54,382 nt of DNA. It comes from Candidatus Omnitrophota bacterium. GTDB taxonomy: Bacteria; Omnitrophota; Gorgyraeia; B26-G9. The stretch lies in NCBI GenBank assembly GCA_018813905.1, contig JAHJAO010000107.1, forward strand, positions 1 to 54,382, read 5' to 3'. The translations under genes were made by a program, and so were the position numbers. Positions 7,048 through 20,326 of this stretch are shown one piece after another (the first letter of the stretch is position 1; every line of letters begins with the position of its first letter). Under the pieces are notes generated by a model. It searched no databases. It was not told the origin of the DNA and saw only the letters and a list, made by a program, of their open reading frames with translations.

Positions 7048-7290
7048 ATGCATGAATACGGCATCGCCGAAAACATTTTGGAAGAAGTATTAAAAGCGCT
7101 CGAAGGACGGAAATTCGAACGCATTACTAAAATTGAATTAGAAGTGGGCCAGTTTAACCTAGTAACAGAAAAATCATTGCAGGAAGCTTTTGAACTGGCC
7201 GCTGAGGGGACGCCGGCCCAAGGGGTGCGATTGGACATCCGGATGAGCGCCGGGATGGAAATTGAGATAAAACATGTGGAAGCCGTCTAG
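7048..7290 (+). CDS. hypA: HypA-like hydrogenase nickel-incorporation protein lacking the zinc domain
   Basis: N-terminal MHE nickel motif; HypA-like body; no cysteines; ends 'MEIEIKHVEAV' like the canonical C-terminal strand. Confidence 0.75.
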   Translation: MHEYGIAENILEEVLKALEGRKFERITKIELEVGQFNLVTEKSLQEAFELAAEGTPAQGVRLDIRMSAGMEIEIKHVEAV

Positions 7291-8455
7291 AACTAAATCG
7301 ATAAAATTTGACCTGGACGAATTAAAAATACGCGGCCAAAAAGATATCGTTGCTTTAGGCGCGGAATTAAAAGCGAATTTTTGTATAATAAAGAAAAACA
7401 AGGCTTATTTGTACTATGGGTTTGGGGATTTGAAAGACCCGCGTTGTTGGGAAAGGTTTAGGGCCGCTGTTTTACAAAAGATTAAACGGTTTAAAATTAA
7501 GCCGGCAGTTATCAGCTGTGATTTAAACCCGCAGTTTTTGAGTTCTCAGTTCGCGCAGGAACTCAAACTCCGATTCAAATCCGCAAAGCGTCTTTTGCCC
7601 GTGCAGCATCACTACGCCCATATCGCCGGCGCGCAGGCAGCGTTAGCTTTGAGCAGAAAAAAGATAATTGGAGTTGCCTGTGATGGGACAGGATTAGGAG
7701 ACAACAAAAATGTGTGGGGATGCGAGTTTTTATTGTGCGACCATTTCCGGATTCGGCGTATTGGGCATTTAAACTATATTCCTTTGCCCGGGGCCGACAT
7801 GGCCGTGCGGCAACCTTGGCGGGTGGCAATAGCTTTACTCTATAAACTTTACGGCAAGGAAATTTTTACGTTGCCGATTGAGTGGTTGAAGAAAAAAAAG
7901 GCAAAAACAAAGGTGTTAATTAAAATGATCGATAAAGGCATAAATACGCCTCTGGCCTCGAGCGCGGGACGTTTGTTCGACGCCGTAGCTGCTTTAACCG
8001 GCTTATGTCATGATGTAAAATATGAGGCCGAAGCGGCGATAGCTTTGGAAAGAAAAGCAGGTAAATTGCGGGGCCGGGAAAAATCCAGTTATCCTTTTAG
8101 CATAAGGGAAGAAAACGGGTTATTGATTGCGCGCACCGATATGATGATCAAGGCGATTGTAGAGGACATAAGATGCGGTAATAGAGTTGAAGTTGTTGCC
8201 GCGCGTTTTCATAATACTTTCTCCCGGATAATTATTAAGATGTGCGGCAAGATAAAAGATAAGTTTAATATTCGGGACGTGGTTTTGGGCGGAGGAGTAT
8301 TTTTTAACAAGATCATAACGGATAGCCTCATGCGGGGATTAGAACGCAGCGGATTTTTTGTGCACAAACCAAAGGATTGCATATTGTCCGATGAAGGGTT
8401 ATCTTTAGGACAGGCGGTGATAGCTTATGTGTCTGGGCGTACCGGTAAAAATTGA
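7274..8455 (+). CDS. hypF: HypF C-terminal (Kae1-like) carbamoyltransferase domain as a stand-alone protein
   Basis: 'ALGAELKANFCIIKKNKAYLYYGFGDL', 'VQHHYAHIAGAQAA', 'GVACDGTGLGDNKNVWGCEF', 'VVLGGGVFFNKI', 'DEGLSLGQA'; no acylphosphatase, zinc-finger or YrdC region. Confidence 0.85.
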   Translation: MWKPSRTKSIKFDLDELKIRGQKDIVALGAELKANFCIIKKNKAYLYYGFGDLKDPRCWERFRAAVLQKIKRFKIKPAVISCDLNPQFLSSQFAQELKLRFKSAKRLLPVQHHYAHIAGAQAALALSRKKIIGVACDGTGLGDNKNVWGCEFLLCDHFRIRRIGHLNYIPLPGADMAVRQPWRVAIALLYKLYGKEIFTLPIEWLKKKKAKTKVLIKMIDKGINTPLASSAGRLFDAVAALTGLCHDVKYEAEAAIALERKAGKLRGREKSSYPFSIREENGLLIARTDMMIKAIVEDIRCGNRVEVVAARFHNTFSRIIIKMCGKIKDKFNIRDVVLGGGVFFNKIITDSLMRGLERSGFFVHKPKDCILSDEGLSLGQAVIAYVSGRTGKN

Positions 8456-8651
8456 AAAAATTGAAGGGAAGACAGCGATAGTCTCCGCGGGCGGAGCGCG
8501 CAAAAAAATAGGGATAGAGCTTACCCCGGGCGTTAAATCCGGTGATTATGTTTTATTACATGCCGGTTTTGCCATCCAGAAAATCAGTGAAGAAGAAGCA
8601 AAAAAGACATTGGAGTTGTTTGAAGAAATGTATAAAAGACTGGCGGAGTGA
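8427..8651 (+). CDS. hypC: HypC/HupF hydrogenase assembly chaperone
   Basis: N-terminus MCLGVPVKI; small acidic C-terminus. Confidence 0.92.
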   Translation: MCLGVPVKIEKIEGKTAIVSAGGARKKIGIELTPGVKSGDYVLLHAGFAIQKISEEEAKKTLELFEEMYKRLAE

Positions 8652-8663
8652 AAGGTTAAGTAT

Positions 8664-8862
8664 TTGACGGAGCAGTAGGACACCGGCCAATCAGTTTTGT
8701 TTGGGCGGTGGACTAAAGAGGGTGTGGGGGAGATCGTCCTCCACGTTTTGGGGGTGCTCAGCGAACGCAGTGAGCGCCGAAGGGGGTTTGCCCCCATAGC
8801 GGAACTGCGTAGTCAGCGGTTCGCTATATCTCTACATAAAAATTAAGTTGACGGAGCAGTAG
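8664..8862. repeat. hairpin-array intergenic element A, bounded by 15-bp direct repeats TTGACGGAGCAGTAG
   Basis: Direct repeats at 8664-8678 and 8848-8862; hairpins GTGGGGGA/TCCTCCAC (8724-8744), GCTCA/TGAGC (8756-8775), GGGGG-tttg-CCCCC (8782-8795). Confidence 0.65.
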
Positions 8863-9963
8863 ATGAAATACGTGGATGAGTTTAGAAACGCAGTTATAGC
8901 AAAAAGATTGATAAAGAAAATTAAGGATATTGCCCGGCGCATAGATAGACAGGTATGTTTAATGGAGGTTTGCGGTACGCATACCGTGGCTATTTTTAGA
9001 TCCGGAATAAGAGAAATATTACCGCAAAATATCCGGATTATTTCCGGCCCCGGGTGCCCGGTGTGTGTTACGGCGCAGGAAGATATTGATAAGGCCGTGG
9101 CGGTTTGTCAGTTGCCGCAAACGATTGTTACCACTTTTGGCGATATGATGAAAGTTCCGGGAACGTTGCATAGCCTAACGACCATCGCAGCGCGCGGATA
9201 TGACGTGCGGCTCGTATATTCGGCTTTGAATGCCCTGGATATCGCACAACATAATCCGACAAAAAGGGTAGTGCACTTATCCGTCGGTTTTGAAACTACC
9301 GCGCCAACTATTGCCGCGACTTTAATGCGGGCAAGGAAAGAAAAGATAAACAATTTTTTTATTTTATGCGCGCATAAATTAATTCCGCCTGCATTGCGGG
9401 CACTTTTGAGTTCGCCCAAAATCAAAATTAGCGGTTTTATTCTGCCGGGCCATGTAAGCACAATTATCGGCGCCCGCCCTTACCGGTTTATCAGCGAACA
9501 GCACAAAATATGCGCAGTTATTGCCGGGTTTGAACCGTTGGATATTTTGCAGTCCGTTGCCGTGCTGCTTGAACAAATCAGGCAGGGTAGCTCTAAAATT
9601 GTGATCCAGTATTCACGCTGCGTAAAAGACAGGGGAAACGCAAAAGCGCAGCAAGTTTTAAAACGGGTTTTTAGCATCTGCGATACTAACTGGCGCGGGT
9701 TGGGCACGATAAAAAAAAGCGGGTATCGTCTTAGGCCCTCGTTTAAAAATTTTGATATTGAACGGCATATTAAATTTGAACTTCCCAGGCAGAAGCAGAC
9801 CAATTGCCGCTGTGGAGATGTCTTGCAGGGGATTATTTTGCCTTTTGAATGTAAATTATTTAAAAAAGCATGCACCCCTGAAAAACCGATCGGCCCTTGT
9901 ATGGTGTCGAGCGAAGGCACTTGCGCCGCCTATTATCGCTATGGAGGTAGATGTGGACAATAA
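8863..9963 (+). CDS. hypD: HypD hydrogenase formation protein
   Basis: 'LMEVCGTHTVAIFRSGIREILPQNIRIISGPGCPVCVT', 'CTPEKPIGPCMVSSEGTCAAYYRYG'. Confidence 0.95.
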   Translation: MKYVDEFRNAVIAKRLIKKIKDIARRIDRQVCLMEVCGTHTVAIFRSGIREILPQNIRIISGPGCPVCVTAQEDIDKAVAVCQLPQTIVTTFGDMMKVPGTLHSLTTIAARGYDVRLVYSALNALDIAQHNPTKRVVHLSVGFETTAPTIAATLMRARKEKINNFFILCAHKLIPPALRALLSSPKIKISGFILPGHVSTIIGARPYRFISEQHKICAVIAGFEPLDILQSVAVLLEQIRQGSSKIVIQYSRCVKDRGNAKAQQVLKRVFSICDTNWRGLGTIKKSGYRLRPSFKNFDIERHIKFELPRQKQTNCRCGDVLQGIILPFECKLFKKACTPEKPIGPCMVSSEGTCAAYYRYGGRCGQ

Positions 9964-10969
9964 AAGAATAACTTTAGCCCACGGCAATGGCGGGCAAAAG
10001 ATGCAAAAGCTTATAAATGAGCTTATAATTTCCAATTTTGGCAATCCAATACTTGACCGGATGGATGACAGCGCCGTGCTTAGCCTATCTCAAGATGCGG
10101 GCAGAATAGCTTTTACTACGGATTCTTTTGTCGTGACCCCTATTTTTTTTCCCGGAGGAGATATCGGAAAATTAGCGATATGCGGAACGGTTAATGACCT
10201 GGCCGTGATGGGGGCAAAGCCGCAATTTTTAAGCGTAGGATTTATTATTGAAGAGGGATTGGAAATTTCTATATTAAAGAAAATCATAATTTCTATGCGT
10301 AAAGCGGCCAAGGAAGCGCAGGTGAAAATTGTTTGCGGCGATACTAAAGTTGTAAATAAAAATAAATGTGATAGAATATTTATAAATACGGCCGGTATTG
10401 GCACGGTGCCACCGGGCGTTAATGTCAGTTCTAAATTTGCAAAAGCCAAGGATGTTATAATTGCCAGCGGTACGGTGGCCGAACACGGGATTGCGATTTT
10501 AGCCCAGAGGGAAGGCATAAAATTTAATAGTGTTTTAAGCAGCGATTGCGCGTCTTTAAATGCGCTGGTTTCCGTAATGCTAAAATACGCGAAGGCCATA
10601 CGCGTTATGCGGGATCCCACCCGCGGCGGGCTGGCCGCGGCGCTGAATGAGATCGCGGCTAGTTCAAACGTAGGCATTGAAATTGATGAACAGAACGTTC
10701 CGCTAAAAGCTAATGTTAAAGGGGCGTGTGAAATACTCGGACTTGACCCGTTATATCTGCCGTCTGAAGGCCGGCTACTGGCTTTTGTCCGGCCGGATAA
10801 GGCAAAAGTTATATTGAAGCGTATGAGGCAGCACCTGTTGGGCAAGGGGGCGCGAATTATCGGCAAAGTGGTGAATAGTCATAAAAAACATGTTTATTTA
10901 AATACCGTTTCCGGCTCAAGCCGCATTTTGGATATGCCGGTTGAAGAGCAATTACCGCGAATCTGTTAA
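9941..10969 (+). CDS. hypE: HypE hydrogenase maturation protein
   Basis: 'ITLAHGNGGQKM', C-terminal 'EEQLPRIC' with conserved terminal Cys; overlaps the hypD end; GTG at 9953 behind GGAGGT is an alternative start. Confidence 0.92.
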   Translation: MEVDVDNKRITLAHGNGGQKMQKLINELIISNFGNPILDRMDDSAVLSLSQDAGRIAFTTDSFVVTPIFFPGGDIGKLAICGTVNDLAVMGAKPQFLSVGFIIEEGLEISILKKIIISMRKAAKEAQVKIVCGDTKVVNKNKCDRIFINTAGIGTVPPGVNVSSKFAKAKDVIIASGTVAEHGIAILAQREGIKFNSVLSSDCASLNALVSVMLKYAKAIRVMRDPTRGGLAAALNEIAASSNVGIEIDEQNVPLKANVKGACEILGLDPLYLPSEGRLLAFVRPDKAKVILKRMRQHLLGKGARIIGKVVNSHKKHVYLNTVSGSSRILDMPVEEQLPRIC

Positions 10970-11000: not shown

Positions 11001-12203
11001 ATGGCGAAAAGTATAGCTGAAATAAATGAAAAAATTAAAAAAGGGCAAGTGGTTGTTGTCACCAAAGAAGAGGTTTTAGATATAGTTAAGGATAAAGGGC
11101 TAAAGAAAACTTCGGAATATGTGGATGTGGTAACAACCGGCACTTTCGGCCCGATGTGTTCTTCTACGGCTATTTTTAATATCGGGCACGCCAAGCCAAA
11201 GATAAAAATACAAAAAGCTTGGGTGAACGACGTACCTTGTTATTGCGGGTTAGCGGCCGTAGATCTAATTATTGGCGCGACCGAACTAAGAGAGAACGAT
11301 CCGGTCAACCTTTATTATCCGGGAGAGTTCAAATACGGCGGGGCCCATGTAATCGAGGAAATGGTACGGGGAAATGATTTAAAACTAAGAGCGGTTGCCT
11401 ATGGAACCGATTGCTACCCGCGCAAAGAACTTAACACTTTAATAAATTTAAAAGACTTGAATGACGCTTGGCTTCTAAACCCCCGAAACGCGTACCAGAA
11501 TTATAATGTGGCGGTCAATATTTCCCAAAAAACCATTTATACCTACATGGGAATGTTGCGGGAAAATTTAGGCAACGCCAATTATTGCAGCGCCGGACAA
11601 TTATCGCCTTTATTGAACGATCCATATTTTAAGACCATTGGTATCGGTACGCGGATTTTTCTCGGCGGCGGCATAGGCTACATATTCGGGCATGGCACTC
11701 AGCATGCCACCAAAGTAAAGAGGACAAAAGAAGGTGTTCCGATAACCCCTGCCGGGACATTGGCGGTTCAGGGGGATTTAAAAAAAATGAATGGCGAATG
11801 GCTACGTGCCGCTTCTATCCAGGGTTATGGCGTGAGTTTAGCGGTAGGGATTGGAGTTCCGATCCCGATCGTTGATGAAAAAATCATGAAAGATGTTTGC
11901 GTGCGGGATGAAGATTTGCTGGCCCAGGTTATCGATTATAGCGGGGCGTATCCGCAGGGTAAAAGCGATTGCCTGGGGTACGTAACTTATAAGGATTTAA
12001 GATCGGGTTCGATAGTTGTGAATGACCGGAAAATCCCTGCGACCGGGATGTCCAGTTATTTTAAAGCGAGAGAAATATGTGAAATCTTGAAGGCGTGGAT
12101 TAAAAAGGGCGATTTCTTACTTTCCGAGCCGGTAGCCTCTATGCCGGGTGAAAATTCCGAGATGATTTTTAAACCGTTAAATTACAGGGAAAGCAGGTCG
12201 TAA
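11001..12203 (+). CDS. DUF39-family homocysteine biosynthesis protein
   Basis: 'DVVTTGTFGPMCSSTAIFNIGHAKPKIKIQKAWVNDVPCYCGLAAVDLIIGATE' and 'GTRIFLGGGIGYIFGHGTQH' are DUF39-like. Confidence 0.8.
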   Translation: MAKSIAEINEKIKKGQVVVVTKEEVLDIVKDKGLKKTSEYVDVVTTGTFGPMCSSTAIFNIGHAKPKIKIQKAWVNDVPCYCGLAAVDLIIGATELRENDPVNLYYPGEFKYGGAHVIEEMVRGNDLKLRAVAYGTDCYPRKELNTLINLKDLNDAWLLNPRNAYQNYNVAVNISQKTIYTYMGMLRENLGNANYCSAGQLSPLLNDPYFKTIGIGTRIFLGGGIGYIFGHGTQHATKVKRTKEGVPITPAGTLAVQGDLKKMNGEWLRAASIQGYGVSLAVGIGVPIPIVDEKIMKDVCVRDEDLLAQVIDYSGAYPQGKSDCLGYVTYKDLRSGSIVVNDRKIPATGMSSYFKAREICEILKAWIKKGDFLLSEPVASMPGENSEMIFKPLNYRESRS

Positions 12204-15632: not shown

Positions 15633-16952
15633 TTGGTGAAAAAGCTTATGGGCGAGACTTTTGCCGGTGGTAATCATATAACCGGTTATAAAGAATTAAG
15701 TAAAGACAAGCAGATTATCGAGATGCCGATACCCTCTCGGGTGGCTATACCGCTTAGCCAGCATACCGGAATTATCTGTGAGCCTATGGTTAAAGAATCC
15801 CAGCTGGTTAGGGTGGGGACCAAGATCGGCCAGGGGCAGGGGCTGATTTCAAGTTCTGTCCACGCAAGCATTTCCGGCAAAGTTACTAAAATCACGGATT
15901 ATAATCATCCGGTACTCGGAGTTTGTAAGGCTGTAATTATCGATTCTGACGGCCAGGACGAATTAGAGCCTGGAGTGGGTGTGGCTCTTGCGCGGAACAT
16001 AAAATTGTTTTCCAAAGAGCAGCTTTTGGAAATTATTAAAAACGCAGGTATCGTGGGTTTGGGCGGCGCAGCCTTTCCCACCCAGGTAAAATTAAACCCG
16101 CCCAAGCCGGTCGAGTTTCTGATTATTAATGGCGCGGAATGCGAACCCTACCTTAGTTGTGATTTTAGAATTATGTTAGAGAGGTCGCAGGATATCTTAA
16201 AGGGGGTGTCTGTTGTCCAGCAGATATTGAATGTGCGGAAAGTTCTTATCGGCGTGGAAGATGATAAACAGGAAGCGATTAAGGCGTTACGGAACAAGAT
16301 TGCCGAGTTGAAGCTGGATTTCGCGGTGGTGGGGCTTAAAACCAAATATCCGCAAGGCGCGGAAAAACAGTTGATAAAGGCGCTTCTGGACAGGGAAGTG
16401 CCGCCGGGCAAGCTTCCTTTTGATGTCGGTGTCGTGGTTTTAAATGTCGGTACGGTCTTGGCGGTGGGGGAGGCGGTTTTTTTGAACAAACCGTTGTACG
16501 AACGCGTAGTTACGGTTACCGGCAAAATTCTGAAAAATCCGGCTAATCTTAAAGTAAGATTAGGCACCAGATTTTCGGAACTGATAAATTTTTGCGGCGG
16601 GATCAAAGGGCAATGCGAGAAAATTATTATGGGCGGCCCGATGATGGGCATAGCGCAGTGCACGGATGATGTTCCGGTAATTAAAGGCACCTCCGGAATT
16701 CTGTTATTGTCAAAATCCCAAACAGCAGGGTTTGCCGAGCAGCCCTGTATCCGCTGCGGACGGTGCGTGGATATATGCCCGATGCGCATGCTGCCTTACC
16801 TGTTAAGCCAATATGGACAAACCGGCCATTATCAAAAAGCGGACGGATTAAACGTGAAAGATTGTATGGAGTGCGGAGCTTGCGTTTATATTTGCCCGGC
16901 TAAAAGACGTATTTTAGAGCATATCCGGTTGTTAAAAACGGTGTTGAAATGA
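15633..16952 (+). CDS. rnfC: RnfC-like electron transport complex subunit
   Basis: 'GIVGLGGAAFPTQVKLNPP', 'INGAECEPYLSCD', two 4Fe-4S motifs CIRCGRCVDICP and CMECGACVYICP. Confidence 0.92.
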   Translation: MVKKLMGETFAGGNHITGYKELSKDKQIIEMPIPSRVAIPLSQHTGIICEPMVKESQLVRVGTKIGQGQGLISSSVHASISGKVTKITDYNHPVLGVCKAVIIDSDGQDELEPGVGVALARNIKLFSKEQLLEIIKNAGIVGLGGAAFPTQVKLNPPKPVEFLIINGAECEPYLSCDFRIMLERSQDILKGVSVVQQILNVRKVLIGVEDDKQEAIKALRNKIAELKLDFAVVGLKTKYPQGAEKQLIKALLDREVPPGKLPFDVGVVVLNVGTVLAVGEAVFLNKPLYERVVTVTGKILKNPANLKVRLGTRFSELINFCGGIKGQCEKIIMGGPMMGIAQCTDDVPVIKGTSGILLLSKSQTAGFAEQPCIRCGRCVDICPMRMLPYLLSQYGQTGHYQKADGLNVKDCMECGACVYICPAKRRILEHIRLLKTVLK

Positions 16953-17933: not shown

Positions 17934-18731
17934 GTGAACAGAATTATTTTAGGGATTTTAACGCTTTCAGGACTCGGCTTCGGCTTTGGTTTGCTACTTG
18001 CCTGGATGTCCAAAAAGTTTCATGTTGAAGTTGACCGCCGCATCATGAAGATTAGCGAAATACTGCCGGGCGTCAACTGCGGAGCTTGCGGCTTGGCCGG
18101 ATGCTCCGGCTTTGCCGAGGCTTTGGTAAATAACGCGGTCAATATTAATGCCTGTGTGGCCTGCTCCGGAGAAAATAAAAAAGCTATTCTTGAAATATTA
18201 GGCGTACAAGCGGACGAAACAAGTACTGATGCCGGGCAAATAGCGGTGATGCACTGCGGCGGCGGAATGAAATGCAAAGACAGATTTTTATACCGCGGAC
18301 TTAAAGATTGCCTTATTGCCGCGCAGACAATCGGCGGCCATAAAGCTTGTAAATACGGGTGTCTTGGCCAGGGTAATTGTGTTGCGGTTTGCCCGTTTGG
18401 CGCGATTGTGATTTTGGAAAATAAAACGCCTCAAGTATCTACCCAGTTATGCCGGGGCTGCAAAAAATGCGTTGCCGCCTGCCCGCGAAAAATCATCAGC
18501 ATGATGTACGTGAAGAAGAAAGTTTATATAAAATGCGTATCGCGCGAGAAAGCCGCGGATAAAGCCAGGAAATGCAAGGCAAGCTGTATTGCGTGCGGTA
18601 AATGCGTTAAGGAATGCTCGCAAGGCGCGATCGCCATAAATGATAATCTGGCCCAAATCAATTATGAAACATGTGTTGGCTGTCAGAAATGCGTTGCGGT
18701 CTGCCCAACCAAAGTTATTGCCGTGATATGA
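17934..18731 (+). CDS. rnfB: RnfB-like ferredoxin subunit
   Basis: N-terminal TM helix, 'LPGVNCGACGLAGCSGFAEALV', multiple 4Fe-4S motifs. Confidence 0.92.
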   Translation: MNRIILGILTLSGLGFGFGLLLAWMSKKFHVEVDRRIMKISEILPGVNCGACGLAGCSGFAEALVNNAVNINACVACSGENKKAILEILGVQADETSTDAGQIAVMHCGGGMKCKDRFLYRGLKDCLIAAQTIGGHKACKYGCLGQGNCVAVCPFGAIVILENKTPQVSTQLCRGCKKCVAACPRKIISMMYVKKKVYIKCVSREKAADKARKCKASCIACGKCVKECSQGAIAINDNLAQINYETCVGCQKCVAVCPTKVIAVI

Positions 18732-20326
18732 AAAAAGTTGATGTTACTGTCCTACCGATTTTAAAAAAAATCAAAGCCGTAAAAGGAACTAGATTGCTGG
18801 ACGCGCTGAAAACCGCGGGCATTGAAAGCGATTCTGCCTGCGGTGGCCGGGGAGTTTGCGGTAAGTGCGAAGTATTGCTTGTAAATAAGCAAAAAGGCGC
18901 AAGAAAAGTAACCCGGAAGGTGCTTGCCTGTCAATTTAAAGTTGAATCGCCTTGTGTTGTCCAGCTTAGATATTCTCCGGGAAGAGAAGTTAAAGTGTTG
19001 AAAGAGCATAAGACAAGTTCTAAATTCAAAGCGGACGCTTTGGTTAAAAGAAAACATTTCACAAGCGGAGTTTCCCTGGTTTTGGATGATGGCGAGCTGC
19101 TAGGGTTTGAAAAGCATAAGCGAAAACATATTTTTGGCCTGGCCATTGATGTGGGTACAACTACTGTTTGTGTGAGTTTATGTAATCTCGAGCGTCAGGA
19201 AGAGGTGGCGCAAGAGGCGGTATTGAACGCTCAGACGCGATACGGCGCGGACATAATCACCCGGCTCGACTTTGCTCTAAAGTCGAGAAAGAACCAGCTT
19301 TTGTTGCATAGAGAAGTGGTGGCTTCTATTAACCGCGCCATCGGCGAATGCGTCCAGAAATCGGGTGTGCATAGAGATCAGATTTATACCGCGGTGGTCG
19401 TGGGCAATTCCGTCATGCATCATTTACTGCTGAAGTTATCTTTGCATACTTTCGTAACTCCTCCTTATCAAATCCGGCATAAAGGCGCGCTCGCCGTAAA
19501 GGCTAAAACTCTTGATTTAGACATTAATCCTAACGCCAACGTTCGGTTTTTGCCTTTGATCGAAGGTTTTGTCGGCTCAGATGTGTTGGCTACGATTATA
19601 AGTTTGCGTTTATTTAAAAATAAACATTTTAATCTATGTGTGGATTTAGGGACCAACGGAGAGATTATTATCGGGTCCAAGCAGGGGATAGAAGTAGCTT
19701 CCTGCGCTGCCGGCCCGGCCTTTGAGGGGTATAATGTGAGCTGCGGCATGATTGCCAAAGCCGGGGCGATTGAATGGGTAAGTATGGAAAACGGACGCTT
19801 GCGGTTGTTAACTATCGGCCATATTCAGCCTCAAGGAATCTGCGGTAGCGGAATTATCGATATTTTAAGCGAATTGCTTAAAGCGGGGATAGTGGACTCA
19901 TCGGGGCAAATGAAGGGGAAGGAATTTACTGTTTACAAAGACAAACGGGTTAAAATTGATTTCACAGCGCGTGATGTGCGTTCCGTGCAGTTAGCCAAAG
20001 CCGCGGTTTGCGCGGGGGCGCAGATTTTAATGAAAAAAGTAAAGGCAAACGCCGGTAAAATCAAAAACGTGTTTTTAGCCGGCGCCTTGGGCAATTATTT
20101 GAACGCGGAAAACGCGCTTAGAATTGGGCTTCTCCCGAAGGAACTGAAAGGCAAAATAAAGTTTGTGGGCAATACGGCTTTTTTAGGCGCGAAACAGGTT
20201 TTGTTTTCGGCAAATGATTTCCGGCAGGCTGTAAAAATTTCCAAAAAAATAAAACATGTGGCCTTAGCGAAAGAAAAAGGTTTTTCCGAAATGTTCGCCC
20301 AGGCTCTGAGTTTTCCTAAAAAATAA
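18728..20326 (+). CDS. ASKHA-type ATPase with N-terminal 2Fe-2S domain (RACo-like reductive activator of corrinoid proteins)
   Basis: 2Fe-2S 'CGGRGVCGKCEV...LACQ', 'FGLAIDVGTTTVCVSL', 'NAQTRYGADIITRL', 'GICGSGIIDILSELLKAGIVD'; ATGA overlap with rnfB stop. Confidence 0.85.
   Translation: MKKVDVTVLPILKKIKAVKGTRLLDALKTAGIESDSACGGRGVCGKCEVLLVNKQKGARKVTRKVLACQFKVESPCVVQLRYSPGREVKVLKEHKTSSKFKADALVKRKHFTSGVSLVLDDGELLGFEKHKRKHIFGLAIDVGTTTVCVSLCNLERQEEVAQEAVLNAQTRYGADIITRLDFALKSRKNQLLLHREVVASINRAIGECVQKSGVHRDQIYTAVVVGNSVMHHLLLKLSLHTFVTPPYQIRHKGALAVKAKTLDLDINPNANVRFLPLIEGFVGSDVLATIISLRLFKNKHFNLCVDLGTNGEIIIGSKQGIEVASCAAGPAFEGYNVSCGMIAKAGAIEWVSMENGRLRLLTIGHIQPQGICGSGIIDILSELLKAGIVDSSGQMKGKEFTVYKDKRVKIDFTARDVRSVQLAKAAVCAGAQILMKKVKANAGKIKNVFLAGALGNYLNAENALRIGLLPKELKGKIKFVGNTAFLGAKQVLFSANDFRQAVKISKKIKHVALAKEKGFSEMFAQALSFPKK

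Follow-up and report, generated by a model that had tools for sequence, protein, structure and literature searches.

The window, a 54,382-nucleotide stretch from a Candidatus Omnitrophota bacterium, is one contig (C57) of a 2.15-Mb draft genome that comprises 135 contigs and is 92.5% complete. Between positions 7048 and 10969 it carries, on the forward strand, the hydrogenase-maturation genes hypA, hypF, hypC, hypD and hypE, a set in which HypF consists of its carbamoyltransferase half only. An earlier note, made from the sequence without database searches, had recognized this cluster, called HypD and HypE canonical, described HypA as lacking its zinc domain and HypF its N-terminal half, and pointed out that hypB is missing from the locus; family models bear out each of these points. 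Its picture of five tightly packed or overlapping genes is right in number, but packing is not tight throughout, as 211 nucleotides of non-coding DNA (8652–8862) separate hypC from hypD. The 80-residue product of hypA (7048–7290) comprises a nickel-binding domain alone, and hypF (7274–8455) encodes 393 residues. Downstream lie hypC (8427–8651; 74 residues with the N-terminus MCLGVP; TIGR00074, 82.5 bits; PF01455), hypD (8863–9963; 366 residues with CGTH and GPGCPVC motifs; TIGR00075, 492.9 bits, above cut-off) and hypE (9941–10969; 342 residues; TIGR02124, 453.8 bits, above cut-off), the last of which starts at the ATG at 9941 and not at the TTG at 9752 given in a mechanical list of open reading frames. 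All three products are canonical by these models, and the C-terminal PRIC of HypE supplies the carbamoyl acceptor cysteine.

The hypF product covers positions 386–740 of the 741-position TIGR00143 model, scoring 265 bits against a curated cut-off of 466, and its only Pfam domains are the Kae1-like PF17788 and PF22521. The acylphosphatase, zinc-finger and YrdC domains are all missing; what is present is the Kae1-like C-terminal carbamoyltransferase domain with its HHxxH...D metal site. The protein is HypF-like rather than TsaD-like, as models for TsaD give only ~22 bits. An AlphaFold2 model of it is confident (predicted local distance difference test score, pLDDT, 93.4; predicted template modelling score 0.91), and among solved structures it most closely resembles those of HypF itself (3vth, 3vti and 3tsp). 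When 36 half-length HypFs, including two from Zetaproteobacteria, were aligned, H112, H113, H116, D137, D236, N345, D373 and Q380 proved identical in all of them. Six columns that are conserved in full-length HypF are relaxed in the half form (S47, G51, D52, Y114, N372 and G375), and these may mark the lost domain interface. The conserved catalytic residues and the fold model together predict, by sequence, that the half HypF is still a functional transferase.

Searches of the source genome with family models returned no second or full-length HypF, the half form being the only HypF that TIGR00143 detected. The other matches to this model were a stand-alone acylphosphatase (C106), a single YrdC–phosphatase fusion protein with purine-type housekeeping neighbours (C88), TsaD (C44) and NodU/TobZ-type carbamoyltransferases (C9 and C123). 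Neither a stand-alone HypF N-terminal half nor a second YrdC was found in this genome, and a genome-wide search for hypB with TIGR00073 was also negative. The genome does encode two [NiFe]-hydrogenase large subunits, each with both cysteine pairs: one of group 1 type (C30; RICGVC and DPCLAC) with its own protease, and one of group 4 type (C89; RICGIC and DPCYCC), the groups being assigned by us from gene content. Thus, a complete HypF with normal HypA and HypB elsewhere, which would have made the locus a redundant copy, was not found.

The same reduced HypF recurs in related organisms. We surveyed 98 genomes of the same class by six-frame searches with TIGR00143, PF01300 and PF00708; about 36 encode the half form only, three a full-length HypF, two a divergent protein of ~710 residues and 57 none. 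Where complete, the half-HypF frames span ~350–430 residues, and they are spread across ~15 families of the class. The N-terminus lies inside a contig in 34 of the 36 genomes, whereas contig ends cut the other two (G011 and G071). A hydrogenase large subunit is present in 34 of the 36 half-HypF genomes (all except G008 and G095) versus 16 of the 57 without HypF (Fisher P = 8e-11, phylogeny ignored). In several families the genes follow the order mbh/mrp-hycI-hypA(short)-hypF-hypC-hypD-hypE, and in an alternative arrangement UPF0280 and NIL-ferredoxin genes lie between hypE and downstream hydrogenase genes; these neighbourhood names were assigned by us from sequence. One half-HypF genome, G077, is a 1.43-Mb single scaffold with ~106 gaps of 100 N. 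Searched whole with E. coli queries, it holds the half HypF, a short HypA, HypC, HypD, HypE, a large subunit, HycI, one TsaC, CarB and two carbamoyltransferases, and shows no HypF N-terminal half except TsaC, no HypB and no clear CarA. Among named genomes from other phyla, only two Zetaproteobacteria depart from a full-length HypF where the contig permits a judgement; named Omnitrophota contigs yielded one half (L123) and two full-length HypFs (L151 and L177), and the surveyed class is therefore probably Omnitrophota. The earlier note had offered two possibilities, that the missing functions are encoded elsewhere or that the lineage uses a simplified pathway. Given this class-wide pattern and the absence of an N-terminal half, second YrdC or hypB from the source genome, the simplified pathway is favoured over the first possibility.

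Some HypF-like sequences in the survey depart from these forms. The two divergent ~710-residue proteins (G062:C26, L095; G032:C39, L096) combine a weak YrdC region with a Kae1 region interrupted by gaps, and their genomes show no large subunit and no hypCDE nearby. Second, more divergent half-HypF copies lie outside the hyp operon in G086:C10 (L097), G034:C1:191103 and G063:C55, two of them without the middle stretch.

A tree built from the Kae1-like domain places all 34 sampled half HypFs of the class together, set apart by a branch of support 99.3 from 82 others that include E. coli HypF, HypF1 of Cupriavidus necator (Ralstonia eutropha) and the Zetaproteobacterial half HypFs. These 34 rows differ from the 34 genomes with a verified N-terminus, as they include L123 and the second copy in G086. 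The full-length HypFs of the class branch among those of other phyla and therefore look acquired. The tree is unrooted, TsaD and NodU being too distant to serve as outgroups. Its simple reading is that the N-terminal half was lost in an ancestor, with a single origin of the half form in the class; a primitively separate state of the two halves is the alternative. The Zetaproteobacterial half HypFs (L147 and L169; 407 and 417 residues) group with a cyanobacterial full-length HypF and apparently represent a separate truncation.

HypA is trimmed as well. The hypA product matches positions 1–67 of the 112-position PF01155 (59.4 bits, above the cut-off of 28.9) and scores 52 bits against the full-length equivalog TIGR00100, below its cut-off of 88.1. 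The MHE start and the final strand are kept and the CxxC...CxxC zinc loop is gone; in an alignment with full HypAs, the gap falls exactly on that loop. Its structural model is of high confidence (pLDDT 95.3) and the best PDB fold matches are all HypA, whereas a PDB sequence search with the short protein found no match. A second short HypA of 80 residues is encoded on C69 of the source genome, beside a HycI-type protease. HypB is clear in one of the 98 class genomes, with a weak match in one more. The earlier note had singled out that the nickel and carbamoyl branches are both reduced at once, a coupling that the survey does not support. Half HypF is accompanied by a full HypA in six genomes and by no detected HypA in 13, and zinc-less HypA stands beside full-length HypF in Chloroflexota (L139:3028-3297, 90 residues) and Planctomycetota (L170:4506-4778, 91 residues), so either reduction can be found without the other. 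Zinc-less HypA occurs beyond this class, and the trimming of HypA is a separate, looser phenomenon than that of HypF.

HypF has been described as a channelling enzyme that holds an unstable intermediate inside one protein, and its reduction raises the question of where carbamoyl-AMP comes from. One canonical YrdC gene is present in 35 of the 36 half-HypF genomes, the same as in HypF-less relatives; a second YrdC appears in genomes with full-length HypF, as part of that protein. Stand-alone acylphosphatase likewise occurs once in half-HypF genomes, as in genomes without HypF. When neighbouring genes were clustered, the families that emerged, named by us from sequence, were arginine decarboxylase/agmatinase, UPF0280/NIL-ferredoxin, mbh/mrp and Fur-like genes, none of which fits a maker of carbamoyl-AMP. 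CarA, the small subunit of carbamoyl-phosphate synthetase, was not found in 11 of the 36 half-HypF genomes (for example, G034, G039, G059 and G077), and G077 keeps CarB together with aspartate and ornithine carbamoyltransferases. Loss of CarA is unspecific as a signature of half HypF, being seen in some HypF-less genomes too. No dedicated donor emerged, and the sole near-universal candidate is the housekeeping TsaC, possibly with acylphosphatase.

We propose, with a probability of roughly 70%, that these genes support a working assembly of the Fe(CN)2CO group of [NiFe]-hydrogenase in which HypF was reduced once, long ago, to its carbamoyltransferase half, carbamoyl-AMP is supplied in trans and HypA acts without HypB. 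The half HypF would pass the carbamoyl group of carbamoyl-AMP to the C-terminal cysteine of HypE, after which dehydration on HypE and transfer of CN to the iron on HypCD would proceed as in the textbook pathway. Carbamoyl-AMP would be neither made nor channelled within the HypF polypeptide. Because the N-terminal half is gone and no gene for it was found elsewhere in the genomes, supply by another enzyme is a component of the model that we regard as quite likely. The identity of this enzyme is more tentative. The best candidate, though at less than even odds, is the single TsaC/Sua5, favoured because its substrate for adenylation is of the carbamate type and because it and TsaD function as separate proteins (PMC9654439). 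In its housekeeping role this enzyme supplies TsaD, a member of the Kae1 family, with an acyl-adenylate formed in solution, and here it would use carbamate instead of N-carboxythreonine. The carbamate could derive from NH3 and HCO3-, or from carbamoyl phosphate cleaved by the stand-alone acylphosphatase. A stricter version, in which TsaC adenylates carbamate from bicarbonate and ammonia only, no carbamoyl-phosphate route exists and half HypF takes carbamoyl-AMP from solution, seems unlikely; if true, it would tie the maturation of hydrogenases to t6A synthesis in tRNA, and the missing CarA genes fit it, unspecific as they are. Nickel delivery would fall to a HypA of which only the nickel-binding domain is left.

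Other explanations can be weighed against this proposal. That the gene is an assembly artefact, a possibility raised in the earlier note, or a decaying pseudogene, which the fragmented, incomplete source assembly could make plausible, can practically be dismissed: a similar start recurs in 34 genomes of ~15 families, in one supported group with an intact active site and operon, which refutes this explanation for the class. A split HypF, with the N-terminal half encoded by a separate gene, is very improbable and largely refuted. The source genome does hold stand-alone acylphosphatase and YrdC proteins, but only one of each, as in HypF-less relatives; its YrdC is phosphatase-fused, sits in the purine-type neighbourhood and agrees with TsaC at each diagnostic position, and six-frame searches of the 98 genomes revealed no HypF zinc-finger/YrdC fragment. 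Equally hard to credit is a Hyp set diverted to a task other than the maturation of [NiFe]-hydrogenase. The two half-HypF genomes that show no large subunit would suit this idea, but the other 34 have one, and the hyp genes often share a gene run with mbh/mrp and hycI.

Two further ideas concern the carbamoyl donor. NodU/TobZ-type carbamoyltransferases could make carbamoyl-AMP through a YrdC-like domain acting on carbamoyl phosphate, and matches to PF16861 are found three times in the source genome and in most class genomes. Five half-HypF genomes have none, however (G025, which is 97% complete, G060, G061, G063 and G086), so these proteins are not a universal donor; HypF-less genomes often carry the domain as well, and we consider this source improbable. 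It is also rather doubtful that half HypF uses another donor directly, such as carbamoyl phosphate, without carbamoyl-AMP. The six relaxed columns could reflect a changed substrate as well as a lost interface, but the residues of the metal and nucleotide sites show no change, and the modelled fold corresponds to that of HypF with nucleotide bound.

Several observations weigh against supply in trans by TsaC and, in part, against the proposal as a whole. Every surveyed genome is a draft assembly of a probably uncultured organism, and in one half-HypF genome, G095, which is 93% complete, no YrdC and no acylphosphatase were found. At every position that discriminates TsaC from the YrdC domain of HypF, the YrdC proteins of 22 half-HypF genomes are TsaC-type, like those of 20 HypF-less genomes; with no HypF-like adaptation at these positions, a donor role of TsaC would depend on promiscuity. 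According to a recent review of how the cofactor is made (PMC12134894), an internal tunnel in full-length HypF shields the labile carbamate; free diffusion would offer no such protection. Finally, HypF1 of C. necator was inactive in E. coli hypF mutants despite the presence of E. coli TsaC, in experiments in which its synthesis there was unconfirmed (PMC5350229).

Around the hyp genes, the window holds additional features. The gap between hypC and hypD contains a perfect 15-nucleotide direct repeat, TTGACGGAGCAGTAG, at 8664–8678 and 8848–8862, 184 nucleotides apart, as well as a hairpin, GGGGGTTTGCCCCC. It looks like a small insertion, and no relatives of it were found in phage records or in the other loci compared. 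Directly after hypE, and outside the Hyp set, lies a forward-strand gene for an HcyBio sulfur-incorporation enzyme (11001–12203; PF01837, 497.3 bits), a placement shared by two genomes of the same family (L098 and L100). A RACo-type corrinoid activator (PF14574 and PF17651) at 18671–20326, in a gene run after an RnfC-like protein at 15633, suggests a corrinoid methyltransferase system. Elsewhere in the class, a carbamoyltransferase C-terminal domain match at G093:C5:380589-381098 falls within an open frame of 18,962 residues.

A class that keeps only the transferase half of HypF, with a conserved active site and adjoining hydrogenase genes, suggests that an external supply of carbamoyl-AMP is possible. 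Two questions thereby become testable: which enzyme makes carbamoyl-AMP when HypF cannot, and whether a zinc-less HypA can support nickel insertion in the absence of HypB. Hydrogenases of Omnitrophota have been reported (PMC8542988 and PMC10066038), and the hydrogenase passages of these open-access papers make no mention of maturation genes, although an earlier notice elsewhere is possible. Truncated HypF likewise went unmentioned under a term search of the open-access review cited above (PMC12134894).

Compared with canonical HypF (PDB 3vth, 3tsp and 4g9i), the window protein is alike in the sequence, fold and active-site residues of its C-terminal Kae1-like domain and differs in having none of the acylphosphatase, zinc-finger and YrdC domains. 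Its HypA shares the MHE start and nickel-domain fold of solved HypAs (3a43 and 5aup), whereas the zinc-binding loop is cleanly absent and the partner HypB was not found in the source genome. With TsaC and TsaD of the t6A pathway, the proposed system would share the separation of a YrdC-type adenylate maker from a Kae1-family transferase, although TsaD gives threonylcarbamoyl to tRNA and the half HypF is clearly of HypF type. The nearest parallel is C. necator HypF1 (pHG1 hyp1 operon; 394 residues, L314:2035-3219), which is of the same length, consists of the Kae1-like domain only and is likewise encoded in an operon with hypA, hypC, hypD and hypE. In C. necator, HypF1 is accompanied by a full-length HypF2 (PMC5350229), and HypB1 and a longer HypA1 are present too, whereas here the half form is the sole HypF found and HypB is clear in just one genome of the class. 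HypF1 falls outside the half-HypF group of the class, a position that does not support common descent, although it forms a long branch and its own placement is unsure. The authors of a recent study of C. necator (PMC9100943) proposed that its truncated HypF probably depends on carbamoyl adenylate from another source, which might be at hand only under aerobic conditions. The class studied here is probably anaerobic, judging from its hydrogenase types and the Omnitrophota papers, and this argues against a restriction of half-length HypF to aerobic conditions. A half-length HypF as such was thus already known from C. necator; what is new is a half HypF that is lineage-wide, apparently the only HypF of its bearers, and found in probable anaerobes.

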